A stretch of 39,087 bases of DNA. It comes from Marinobacterium profundum (GTDB lineage Bacteria > Pseudomonadota > Gammaproteobacteria > Pseudomonadales > Balneatricaceae). Shown in pieces: positions 3,124-6,463 of the stretch. Location of the stretch: the NCBI RefSeq assembly GCF_001528745.1, contig NZ_BCNS01000093.1, forward strand, positions 1 through 39,087, read 5' to 3'. Below the pieces are notes generated by a model. It saw only the letters and a list, made by a program, of their open reading frames with translations, was not told the origin of the DNA and searched no databases. Within the stretch, counting starts at the first letter, position 1, and every line of letters starts with the position of its first letter. Made by a program: the position numbers and the translations under genes.

Positions 3124-3711
3124 GTGTCAAACGAGAGTCAGAGCGCGATTGACGGGCAGCTGGTGAAGCGTGTGCAGGCGGGTGACAGTCGAGCTTATGA
3201 TCTGCTGGTGAAAAAGTACCAGCACAAGATCATCGGCCTGATTGGGCGTTATGTGTATGACCACCACGAAGCGCTGGATGTATCCCAGGAGGCTTTCATC
3301 AAGGCTTATCGAGCCTTGCCGAAATTTCGTGGCGACAGTGCCTTCTATACATGGTTGTACAGAATTGCCATTAATACGGCCAAAAATCACCTGGTTGCCA
3401 AGGGGCGCCGTCCGCCGGATGTTGATGTGGCGGTGGAGGATGCACATTATTTTGGTGGAGACAGTCAGCTCAAGGATATTGAGAGCCCCGAGAACAACCT
3501 TTATCGGGATGAGCTTGAAGCCATTGTTAAGCGTGTGCTGGACAAATTGCCCGAGGACCTTCGGGTTGCGCTGACGCTACGCGAGTTCGATGGTTTGAGT
3601 TACGAAGATATCGCCAATGTCATGGATTGCCCGGTGGGAACGGTTCGTTCCCGGATTTTCAGGGCGCGAGAGGCGATCGATAAAGAGATAGTGCCTTTTC
3701 TTGCGGAATGA
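3124..3711 (+). CDS. rpoE: Extracytoplasmic sigma factor sigma-E (RpoE/AlgU)
   Basis: A 195-aa ECF sigma factor that directs RNA polymerase to envelope-stress promoters. Region 2 is visible around residues 25-95 (EALDVSQEAFIKAYRALPKF, FYTWLYRIAINTAKNHL) and region 4 around residues 135-190 (LPEDLRVALTLREFDGLSYE, then VGTVRSRIFRAREAI). It is very close to E. coli RpoE and P. aeruginosa AlgU in pattern and length. The start is GTG preceded by aaggatctgga. The next gene encodes its anti-sigma factor, so the pair is held inactive at the membrane until stress proteolysis. Confidence 0.97.
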   Translation: MSNESQSAIDGQLVKRVQAGDSRAYDLLVKKYQHKIIGLIGRYVYDHHEALDVSQEAFIKAYRALPKFRGDSAFYTWLYRIAINTAKNHLVAKGRRPPDVDVAVEDAHYFGGDSQLKDIESPENNLYRDELEAIVKRVLDKLPEDLRVALTLREFDGLSYEDIANVMDCPVGTVRSRIFRAREAIDKEIVPFLAE

Positions 3712-3757: not shown

Positions 3758-4606
3758 ATGAGTGATGAGTTCAACGATACCCTGTCGGCGCTTGTGGACG
3801 GTGAAGCCAATGACTTTGAAACGCGTCGGCTGCTGTCAACGCTGGATGAGCAGCCGGCGATGGGTGAAAAATGGCGCCGCTACCACCTGACACGCTCGGC
3901 CCTGAAGGGGGAGCGGGATACGGTGATTGCTGATATCAGTGCCGGTGTGATGGCGCAGATTGCCAGTGCCGATGTGGAGCCGCTGCTGGATACTCCAGCG
4001 GATGTTGCAGAGAAGGAGGCTGTGCCCCGAAAAGTGGAGTCCGGGCGCTACTGGAAGCCGCTCATCAGTATGGCCACGGCAGCCTCTGTTACGGCTGCGG
4101 TGATTCTGGGTGTACAGGGCTTCAATGCCGAGTCTGTCAACACGGTTGCCAGTAACCAGCCGCAATACCTGTTGCCGTCGGTAAGCAGTTCCGCCGATTT
4201 CGTGAGAGCCCGCTATGGGCATGAGAGTGGCTATTCAGCCCAGGGTGCTCAGCAGGCGGATGTGATTCGCCTGTCACGGGGCCTTGAACGTTACATTGAA
4301 CAGCACCAGCATATGCTTGGTGCCAAGCAGCCTGGCTGGCGTGCCCAGTGGCTGCCGGATGGCTTTACCAAGGTACGTCACGAAGTAATGCCCGGCGCCG
4401 AAGTTATGCTGTTTTCCGATGGGCGCCATTCGGTATCCGTCTGCATAGAGCCGTTCGGGCGTCAGACGGTTGCCTCCGGTGCGGCGCAGTCCAAGGACAT
4501 GATAGCGGTCGGCAAGCGTCGCGGCGATGACTTCGTGACCGTTGTGGGTGATGTGCCGCTGATGATCGCGGATCGTATTGCCGCTTCAGTTCAGGTTAAC
4601 CAGTAA
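3758..4606 (+). CDS. rseA: RseA/MucA anti-sigma factor fused to an RseB/MucB C-terminal domain
   Basis: A 282-aa intact ORF, versus about 195-215 aa for usual RseA/MucA. Residues 1-75 are the cytoplasmic anti-sigma domain (SALVDGEANDFETRRLL, WRRYHLTRSALKGE). Residues about 102-120 form one membrane helix. Residues 121-190 are a MucA-like periplasmic part ending in RGLERYIEQHQ, which matches the extreme C-terminus of MucA. From about 192 the sequence changes to the signature of the RseB/MucB C-terminal domain: WRAQWLPDGF, LFSDGRHSVSVCIEP, then a GDDFVTVVGDVPLMIADRIA block. The large lipid-sensing N-terminal domain of RseB is absent, and no rseB gene follows. The stop abuts the rseC start. Domain assignment is by recognised motifs; the regulatory consequence is inference. 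Confidence 0.85.
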   Translation: MSDEFNDTLSALVDGEANDFETRRLLSTLDEQPAMGEKWRRYHLTRSALKGERDTVIADISAGVMAQIASADVEPLLDTPADVAEKEAVPRKVESGRYWKPLISMATAASVTAAVILGVQGFNAESVNTVASNQPQYLLPSVSSSADFVRARYGHESGYSAQGAQQADVIRLSRGLERYIEQHQHMLGAKQPGWRAQWLPDGFTKVRHEVMPGAEVMLFSDGRHSVSVCIEPFGRQTVASGAAQSKDMIAVGKRRGDDFVTVVGDVPLMIADRIAASVQVNQ

Positions 4607-5041
4607 ATGCTGCAGGAAGACGCAGTGGTGGTGGCAGTGGATGGCGAGGGTGTCTGGGTTGAGTCCGACCGCACAGGCACCTGTCAGAGCTGCAGTGCCA
4701 GTAAGGGATGCGGCCAGCGCGCACTGGCAGAATACGCCAGCAAGCGCAGCGAACGTCTGCTGATTGATAACCCGCATGGCCTTGTTACACGCGTAGGCGA
4801 CAGAGTCACTATTGGTATTGAGGAAGGCAGTTTCCTGCAAGCCTCGGTGCTGCTCTATACCCTGCCGCTTGTCTTGCTCTTCCTTGGCGGGTATCTGGGG
4901 TCCTTTTACGGTACGTCCGAATTACCTTCGATTATTGGCAGCTTCTGTGGTCTGGCAGCAGGTTTGCTGCTGGTCAGAGGTGCCGGTCAACGTTTGGCGC
5001 GCTCATGTCGATACCAGCCTGTACTGATGAATATTATCTAG
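4607..5041 (+). CDS. rseC: RseC/MucC inner-membrane regulator of sigma-E
   Basis: A 144-aa inner-membrane protein of the RseC/MucC family, a mild positive modulator of sigma-E linked in some species to reduction of SoxR. Cysteines 26, 29 and 35 form the CQSCSASKGCG cluster typical of the family. Two hydrophobic membrane segments lie at about residues 79-96 and 107-128. The ATG follows the rseA stop directly with no gap, so translation is probably coupled. It ends 25 nt before mucD. Homology call is strong; the biochemical role of the family is less settled. Confidence 0.92.
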   Translation: MLQEDAVVVAVDGEGVWVESDRTGTCQSCSASKGCGQRALAEYASKRSERLLIDNPHGLVTRVGDRVTIGIEEGSFLQASVLLYTLPLVLLFLGGYLGSFYGTSELPSIIGSFCGLAAGLLLVRGAGQRLARSCRYQPVLMNII

Positions 5042-5065: not shown

Positions 5066-6463
5066 ATGCAGTCAATGAAAGTAGTACTCAGCATTCTGTT
5101 GTGTCTGGTGTGGTTACCTGCGCATGCCGAATTGCCTGACTTTAAAAGTCTGGTGAAGGAAGCCGCGCCTGCAGTGGTTAATATCAGTACGGTACCGAAA
5201 GAAAAGACCGGTCAGGCGTCTGCGCTTAATCCGTTCGAGGGGGCTGATGCCGAGCAAATTCCGGAAATGTTCCGGCATTTCTTCAAGCAGCTACCGGAGC
5301 TGAGTGAGCAGCCACGTCCTGCGCCGCGCTCGCTGGGTTCAGGTTTTGTGATTAGCGAAGACGGTTACATCCTTACCAATCATCATGTGGTCAAGGGGGC
5401 TGGCAAGGTGCTGGTACGCCTGAGTGACCGGCGCGAGCTTGAAGCTGAGGTGATTGGTTCGGATGAACGCGCTGATGTAGCTGTGCTGAAAATTGATGCA
5501 ACCGAGCTGCCACATGTGCGCATCGGCTCGTCCGATGCGCTGGAAGCAGGCGAGTGGGTACTTGCCATTGGCTCGCCCTTTGGGTTTGATCATTCAGTCA
5601 CCGCCGGTATCGTCAGTGCTACCGAGCGCGCGCTGGCCAACGAAACCTATGTGCCTTTTATTCAGACCGATGTGGCGATTAACCCGGGTAACTCCGGTGG
5701 CCCGCTGTTTAACCTCAATGGCGAGGTTGTCGGCATAAACTCGCAGATTTACACCCGTTCAGGCGGTTTTATGGGGCTGTCGTTCGCTATTCCAATCGAT
5801 GTTGCCATGGATGTTGCCGAGCAACTCAAGACCCAGGGACATGTTACCCGCGGCTGGCTGGGCGTGATCATTCAGGAAGTGAGTCGGGATCTTGCCGAGT
5901 CCTTCGGCCTCGACAAGCCCGCCGGGGCCCTGATTGCAAAAGTATTGCCAGGCAGCCCCGCAGAGAAATCAGGCTTCATGGAAGGTGATGTTATTTACCG
6001 CTTTGATGGTCGGGATATCGATTTGTCGTCGGATCTTCCACCTCAGGTGGGTCGCGTCAAACCCGGCGAGTCAGTGCCTATTGATATAGTACGCAACGGC
6101 AAGCATGAACGACTGGATGTCACCATAGAAGCGCTGCCTGAAAACAGCGATCAGCTTGCCGCATCCGGTTATGTTGACGAGCACAAGAGTAATCGTCTTG
6201 AGCTGGTAGTGGGCGAGCTTGATGCCGAGCGCAAGGAAAAGTGGAATCTGCGTACAGGCGTGGTGATACGAGCGGTCAATCCGGGTGCCGGTGCGGATGC
6301 AGGACTTGTGGTCGAAGACGTTATTACCATGGTGAACGGCGAGGTGATCGAGAGCGTGAAGCAGTTTGAACAGGCGCTGGAAAACCTTCCGGTTGACCGG
6401 CCGGTGCCTCTGCGCATCGTGCGACGGGGAAGCCCGATGTTTATTCCGCTCAAGCTCGAGTAA
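5066..6463 (+). CDS. mucD: Periplasmic serine protease MucD (DegP/DegQ family)
   Basis: A 465-aa HtrA-type protease. Residues 1-21 are a signal peptide (hydrophobic [16 protein letters not shown]). The trypsin-like domain carries the triad His107 (in TNHHVV), Asp137 (in ADVAVLKI) and Ser210 (in NPGNSGGP). Two PDZ domains follow, at about 265-355 ([29 protein letters not shown]) and 375-460 ([20 protein letters not shown]). In Pseudomonas MucD degrades misfolded envelope proteins and dampens AlgU activation. It closes the sigma-E operon and is followed by a strong terminator. A second ATG lies three codons in; the first is chosen because it keeps the full signal peptide n-region. Confidence 0.95.

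Follow-up and report, generated by a model that had tools for sequence, protein, structure and literature searches.

The sigma-E pathway is a textbook two-signal switch of the envelope-stress response, in which outer-membrane protein tails act through the protease DegS/AlgW and lipid or LPS acts through RseB. A reading frame in the 39,087-nucleotide stretch of Marinobacterium profundum DNA analysed here (the window) raises the question of what becomes of this switch when the anti-sigma factor RseA (MucA in Pseudomonas aeruginosa) and the C-terminal domain (CTD) of RseB (MucB) are made as one chain and the N-terminal domain (NTD) of RseB is missing. Lineages that keep the RseA-gripping domain of RseB without its lipid sensor are natural experiments separating the two RseB functions, and the fusion makes both the role of the CTD alone and the dispensability of lipid input directly testable. 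Each part is already known by itself; the literature searched, which mostly left out subscription journals, contains no published description of the fusion as one chain lacking the sensor, of its spread through the family or of its second origin.

The fusion is an intact single reading frame of the forward strand (3758–4606) that starts with ATG and encodes 282 residues, and Pfam together with sequence matches to chains of solved structures identifies it as mucA/rseA joined to the mucB/rseB CTD. Residues 6–93 (3773–4036) match RseA_N, the cytoplasmic sigma-binding domain (PF03872, E = 4.5e-15; 56.4 bits against a curated cut-off of 24), and residues 190–279 (4325–4594) match the MucB/RseB CTD (PF17188, E = 4.9e-17; 62.3 bits against a curated cut-off of 30.1), an assignment to which Foldseek matches of a cropped model also point. 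A sequence search of solved structures pairs residues 4–74 with MucA (E = 3e-8) and residues 172–279 with chains of MucB from P. aeruginosa (E = 8.4e-10). The preliminary description of this DNA had read RseA and the RseB CTD in one intact frame, with the latter in residues 190–282, and both domains are borne out by these scores. The NCBIfam equivalog models give 69.3 bits for RseA (NF008116, cut-off 263, covering residues 7–150 only) and 41.9 bits for RseB (NF006990, cut-off 368), and because NF008116 falls below its cut-off the fused protein is not RseA in the strict equivalog sense, though it has an RseA domain. A probable transmembrane helix (residues 99–118; 4052–4111), read from the sequence rather than from a predictor, contains A108, A109, S110 and G118, all invariant in the 108 complete fusions of the family described below. 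Upstream on the same strand lies the ECF sigma factor gene rpoE/algU (3124–3711; TIGR02939 RpoE_Sigma70, 304.3 bits, cut-off 236.15), and downstream are rseC/mucC (4607–5041; PF04246, E = 3.1e-32), which directly adjoins the fusion at 4606/4607 with no gene between them in the window, and a mucD/degP-type serine protease gene (5066–6463; TIGR02037, 492 bits, cut-off 416.2). With the sigma gene upstream, rseC touching the stop and mucD following, this is therefore the usual operon, in which rseA and rseB have been merged and the RseB NTD is missing.

The missing domain was sought in the source genome, which comprises 5.64 Mb on 226 contigs and is listed as 100% complete. The RseB NTD family, a LolA-like lipid sensor (PF03888), is absent from the fused ORF by Pfam and has no match in the genome at E ≤ 0.001 or E ≤ 0.01, with E. 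coli among the controls that matched; the single CTD match of the profile search in this genome is the fusion itself. At HMM sensitivity the RseB NTD is lost from this genome, in keeping with the initial reading that the large sensory domain is gone and that there is no separate rseB; the complete rseB that would have spoken against that reading was not found anywhere in the genome. In a draw of 293 genomes from the order, 12 of them from the fusion family, 245 matched the CTD and 243 matched the NTD, and when the two listings were compared by eye, 232 of the 233 CTD-bearing genomes outside the family also had the NTD, whose model scores in ordinary members of the order reach 208 bits. MucA and MucB are separate ORFs at all 15 of the order loci inspected outside the family. 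The sole non-family CTD genome of the draw without the NTD (G228, family code f14) may be either a third instance of the fusion or the result of a gap in its assembly.

Within the family, a group of marine bacteria, a profile search matched the CTD in 112 of 116 genomes (16 genera). All 112 loci were inspected and 108 are complete fused ORFs. Every one of these has an RseA_N match and a MucB_RseB_C match at E ≤ 0.01, and none of their Pfam matches at this threshold is to the NTD family. The four incomplete loci are explained by runs of N (L008 and L143), a contig end (L128) and a frameshifted tail (L120, in a genome listed as 78% complete). The carriers include Marinobacterium sedimentorum (L031), M. 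rhizophilum (L032) and two Neptuniibacter records (L033 and L034); Marinobacterium is placed in Oceanospirillaceae by NCBI, and its GTDB family we take to be Nitrincolaceae. With complete fusions at 108 of the 112 family CTD loci, the survey of related genomes called for in the preliminary description shows a family-wide trait and not a local deletion.

NTD-model matches at E ≤ 0.01 do occur in 20 of the 116 family genomes, all of them partial and the best at 32.1 bits, with 12 genomes over the curated cut-off of 22.3 bits. Of eight such loci retrieved, two were inspected as candidates for a relocated NTD (L035, ORF 1309–2193; L042, ORF 1360–2292) and were rejected, both being other LolA-like proteins that match the NTD model weakly, with MMPL-like or ABC-permease-like transporter genes and a probable beta-barrel gene as neighbours (names from translations, not from HMMs). 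Additionally, at seven loci of one genus (g16; L149–L151 and L193–L196) the rseC frame starts 191–427 bases past the fusion stop. A replacement gene in this gap was rejected on L151, the one complete locus read, where the operon strand holds no ORF of at least 60 residues; at L193 no ORF is listed past the fusion on the operon strand, rseC itself being unlisted and running off the stretch.

To look beyond the order, 369 genomes sampled from the class were searched with a profile built from the 108 fusions, and 255 matched. The 29 loci taken from the best of these matches outside the order or family of the window (L215–L243, of which L215, L217 and L218 do belong to that order) comprise 22 loci with separate MucA-like and MucB-like ORFs, six with the MucA-like part only and one that is fused (L237, group f148); as these are the best matches only, weaker fusions elsewhere in the class could be missed. 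The order of f148 is represented by six genomes, with the CTD in five and the NTD in none, and each of the five CTD loci matches both halves of the fusion profile (RseA and CTD), used here instead of Pfam, in one frame. A maximum-likelihood tree of the AlgU, RseA, CTD and RseC parts (57 rows, 540 columns; 22 family, 5 f148, 19 order and 11 class rows) sets the family apart by a branch of 99/94 and f148 by one of 100/100, with f148 among distant class rows (95/60) and a branch of 85/98 separating it from the family. When both fusions are held together the tree is worse by 32.5 log units, and a single origin of the two lineages is rejected at p-AU = 0.0127 (0.0375 in a quick run containing a duplicate row), in a test that is not decisive because f148 has a long branch (0.88) and only 95/60 placement support. 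As judged from this tree, the fusion most likely arose twice. The in-frame deletion between mucA and mucB that was first proposed as its source is still the simplest origin, because gene order is kept and the junction lies between MucA alphaI and the MucB NTD/CTD border, but the event would be ancient and most likely happened twice.

The position of this junction gains meaning from the MucA–MucB and RseA–RseB complexes as reported in the excerpted text of PMC7400510. There, the alphaI helix of MucA/RseA binds the CTD, a contact termed a universal determinant, and by itself still binds RseB, MucA residues 145–158 pair with a CTD strand, and alphaII contacts the NTD but is dispensable for binding. 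In the structures 6jau and 3m4w, alphaI lies in the groove of the CTD. The same excerpts place lipid A on the NTD and, in the solved RseA–RseB complex, show the RseA cut region 142–151 buried in a hydrophobic pocket of RseB with an NTD strand over it. The fusion keeps the equivalents of the cut region and of alphaI, drops alphaII, and enters the CTD at the NTD/CTD border. In a profile alignment with a canonical MucA (L200), its putative site-1 (AlgW/DegS) cut region, V149-R-A-R-Y153 (4202–4216), falls on V-L-A-G-Y; the AlgW sites given in the excerpts of PMC8545111 are 134-VLAG-137 in MucA and 211-TVAW-214 in MucB, and MucB W214 corresponds to W194 of the fusion. In those excerpts, AlgW of P. 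aeruginosa is itself responsive to lipid. This region is partly conserved in the family, with A151 in 60 and G154 in 92 of the 108 fusions. The alphaI equivalent (residues 169–187; 4262–4318) is recognised by the conservation of H183, and its role in CTD binding is taken from the excerpts of PMC7400510. Its motif is R171-L-S-R-G-L-E-R-Y179-I-E-Q-H183, where the preliminary description had given RLxxYIxQH, and the "full RseA/MucA" of that description was too strong, the canonical tail after alphaI (such as GQGxLPFARV, alphaII) being missing. Y179 and H183 align on a Y and an H that by position are Y166 and H170 of MucA, and H183 is present in 93 of the 108 fusions, is Y in one, and is missing with the whole Y-I-x-Q-H segment in 14 (L122 of g4 and the 13 g13 members L144–L147 and L184–L192), all of which keep the CTD. 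According to the excerpts of PMC7400510, W158, R162 and H170 of MucA are needed for MucB binding in P. aeruginosa; as W158 is replaced by R171 (kept in 102 of 108 fusions) and R162 by G175, so that only H170 is kept of the three, the old MucA–MucB interface cannot simply be assumed.

With the P. aeruginosa MucA–MucB and E. coli RseA–RseB systems the fusion has in common RseA_N, a probable membrane anchor, a site-1-like region, alphaI and the CTD, as well as the operon order sigma, anti-sigma, (RseB), RseC, MucD and the presence of a DegS-like protease and RseP in the genome. It differs in being one polypeptide in place of two, without the NTD, the alphaII tail or a separate RseB. The class I anti-sigma factors with fused domains described in the excerpts of PMC7406223 likewise join an anti-sigma domain to a conserved fused domain; compared with these, the domain added here comes from a negative regulator of the very same pathway.

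Judged by its substitutions, the CTD of the fusions is under purifying selection. Pooled pairwise dN/dS for the CTD is 0.08, 0.04, 0.20 and 0.14 in four genera (7, 8, 8 and 13 sequences), that of alphaI is 0.02, 0.14 and 0.12, with 0.32 in the genus without the motif, and that of the cytoplasmic linker is 0.29–0.57, all rough values because synonymous sites are near saturation. To see how the CTD surface has changed, 75 distinct ordinary CTDs (strong matches from the order and class, none from the family) were compared with the 108 fused CTDs and the five of f148. The position of MucB D247, an inter-domain residue in the excerpts of PMC7400510, is D in all 75 ordinary CTDs, and is not D in 81 of the 108 fusions (N 75, K 5 and S 1, with D in 27) and in four of the five f148 proteins (N 4, D 1). 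Position 249 is L, M, V or I in all 75 ordinary CTDs, charged in 74 of the 108 fusions (R 42, K 14, E 10 and D 8, followed by V 7 and S 6) and E or D in all five of f148 (E 4, D 1). We read this as a release of the NTD-facing surface once the NTD had been lost, with parallel changes at two positions in the two lineages. Compared with MucA–MucB, an NTD-facing CTD residue is thereby changed in most family members and kept in the window protein, which has D at 247 and R at 249. We also read the changes at NTD-facing residues as evidence against a separate, docking NTD. Two other positions are not parallel: 255, which is F or Y in all 75 ordinary CTDs, has S or C in most family members and F in all five of f148, and 295, which is E in 73 of 75 ordinary CTDs and in all five of f148, has D in most of the family. 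Among the residues that the family has newly fixed are F at position 289 (107/108) and G at position 278 (103/108).

Structure prediction was of use for the CTD. AlphaFold2 (five sequences) gave a mean pLDDT of 41.5 for the full-length protein and 56.5 for a crop starting at residue 150 (again five sequences), with block means of 70–82 in the CTD core. The top 15 Foldseek matches of the cropped model in the PDB are all MucB/RseB chains (E = 8.5e-5 to 0.011), but their TM-scores stay below 0.5 and most RMSD values are large. AlphaI is predicted as a helix, most of it with pLDDT below 50, and because of these low values the predictions give no answer on whether alphaI packs on the CTD; the cropped model supports the CTD fold only, and not a contact in cis.

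The proteases that act on the ordinary pathway have counterparts here. The source genome encodes a DegS-like protein (L103) that scores 347.9 bits over model positions 4–350, against a curated cut-off of 422.95, and whose ORF reads as an N-terminal hydrophobic anchor, one protease domain and one PDZ domain, and it encodes RseP (L109; TIGR00054, 398.8 bits, cut-off 147.55). HtrA-type matches are found in all 116 family genomes, and by an eye count the best DegS-model match has E ≤ 3.1e-93 in 93 of them, with lower-scoring HtrA-type matches only in the other 23; no DegS-model match in the 116 genomes reaches the curated cut-off. In g13 (15 genomes, alphaI lost) the DegS-model matches are lower, with best E values of 5.7e-88 to 1.4e-79. 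It is possible that the loss of alphaI and the lower DegS-model scores in g4 and g13 reflect a joint change of substrate and protease.

From these observations we lean, by a little more than an even balance, toward an anti-sigma factor that caps itself, with the CTD covering alphaI in cis, the lipid input gone and AlgW/DegS as the main trigger. The cytoplasmic part would hold sigma-E/AlgU, as RseA_N suggests, and the tethered CTD would clamp the neighbouring alphaI of its own chain in place of a separate RseB; in ordinary systems the CTD binds alphaI in trans, and here both are on one chain. With the loss of the NTD, the domain that senses lipid A and contributes to burying the cut region, the lipid/LPS release step would be absent. 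The main remaining trigger would be AlgW/DegS, switched on by the tails of outer-membrane proteins, with RseP acting next. The folded cap may also keep RseP off the uncut protein, in line with the PDZ domains of RseP acting as a size filter in the excerpts of the review PMC10202637. Pointing this way are a junction that keeps alphaI and drops the deletable alphaII, the two domains in one ORF with no NTD found in the source genome, two likely origins, and both domains matched in every complete family fusion, with low dN/dS for the CTD (0.04–0.20) and, in three genera, for alphaI (0.02–0.14). The altered positions 247 and 249 in both lineages, the retained DegS-like protease and RseP, the site-1 region aligned with VLAG, and the ability of alphaI alone to bind RseB in the PMC7400510 excerpts are consistent with it as well. 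Set against it are the replaced W158 and R162 equivalents, the 14 members that keep the CTD without alphaI, the poor predictions in which packing in cis is not seen, DegS-model scores below the cut-off throughout the family with 23 genomes limited to lower-scoring HtrA-type matches, the 12 genomes with an NTD-model match over its cut-off, and the window protein's own D at 247.

Some of these same points suit other explanations. The 14 members without alphaI would be at home with a fused CTD that has been re-specialised as a built-in sensor, whether it binds a new ligand, a new partner or some other stretch of MucA: in one clade that lost alphaI the CTD is still constrained (dN/dS 0.14), and the fusions of the family share residues that are not fixed in ordinary CTDs (F259 in 107, E215 in 99, G252 in 103 and G241 in all 108). 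We nevertheless consider such a sensor unlikely, with alphaI, the known CTD ligand, kept in most members (H183 in 93 of 108), no other ligand known, and no residues of the F259/E215/G252/G241 type in the second lineage. The permanent cis-shielding put forward in the preliminary description, in which AlgW/DegS would always be blocked and sigma-E freed by another protease or only under extreme stress, appears less probable again. Some steric hindrance is plausible, since in MucA–MucB a CTD strand pairs with the stretch just past the cut site (MucA 145–158), but the RseA cut region is buried with the help of an NTD strand that is gone here, and a VLAG-like region retained alongside DegS-like proteases would make little sense as a site that is never used. 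On this comparison, the CTD more probably caps alphaI than occludes the cut site completely.

A split RseB, with the NTD surviving as a diverged protein of its own and docking onto the fused CTD, we regard as highly improbable. Diverged LolA-like folds can escape HMM searches, and the 20 family genomes with NTD-model matches, 12 over the curated cut-off, would suit this explanation, yet none is found in the source genome, the two matches inspected (L035 and L042) belong to LolA-like proteins with transporter and beta-barrel genes as neighbours, most members of both lineages have an altered NTD-contact residue, and the window has no gene between the fusion and rseC. The frameshifted tail in one family genome (G017) is what an assembly error, or a CTD decaying after deletion of rseB, might leave; complete ORFs at 108 of 112 loci from different genomes, a CTD under purifying selection and two likely origins make an artefact or relic barely credible. 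Returning to self-capping by the CTD, we offer one extension as a tentative and rather doubtful proposal, namely that two lineages each collapsed RseA–RseB into a self-clamped chain without the lipid sensor and that the larger lineage re-shaped the CTD face into a conserved surface, so that the strength of the cis clamp (or a new CTD ligand) would set how easily AlgW/DegS cuts. The architecture suggests a simpler wiring of a textbook envelope-stress pathway.

Two further observations concern the DNA around the operon. One loose sigma-E-like promoter pattern, based on what we take to be the consensus, has three matches in the window, an uninformative number (shuffled sequences average 1.0, and 11 of 100 reach three); none lies upstream of algU on the forward strand, and one is at 2973–2999 on the reverse strand. 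Between the 5' end of the window and nadB, a name read from the ORF, positions 604–1285 hold an sdhE-like gene followed by a CptA-toxin-like gene (PF07254).
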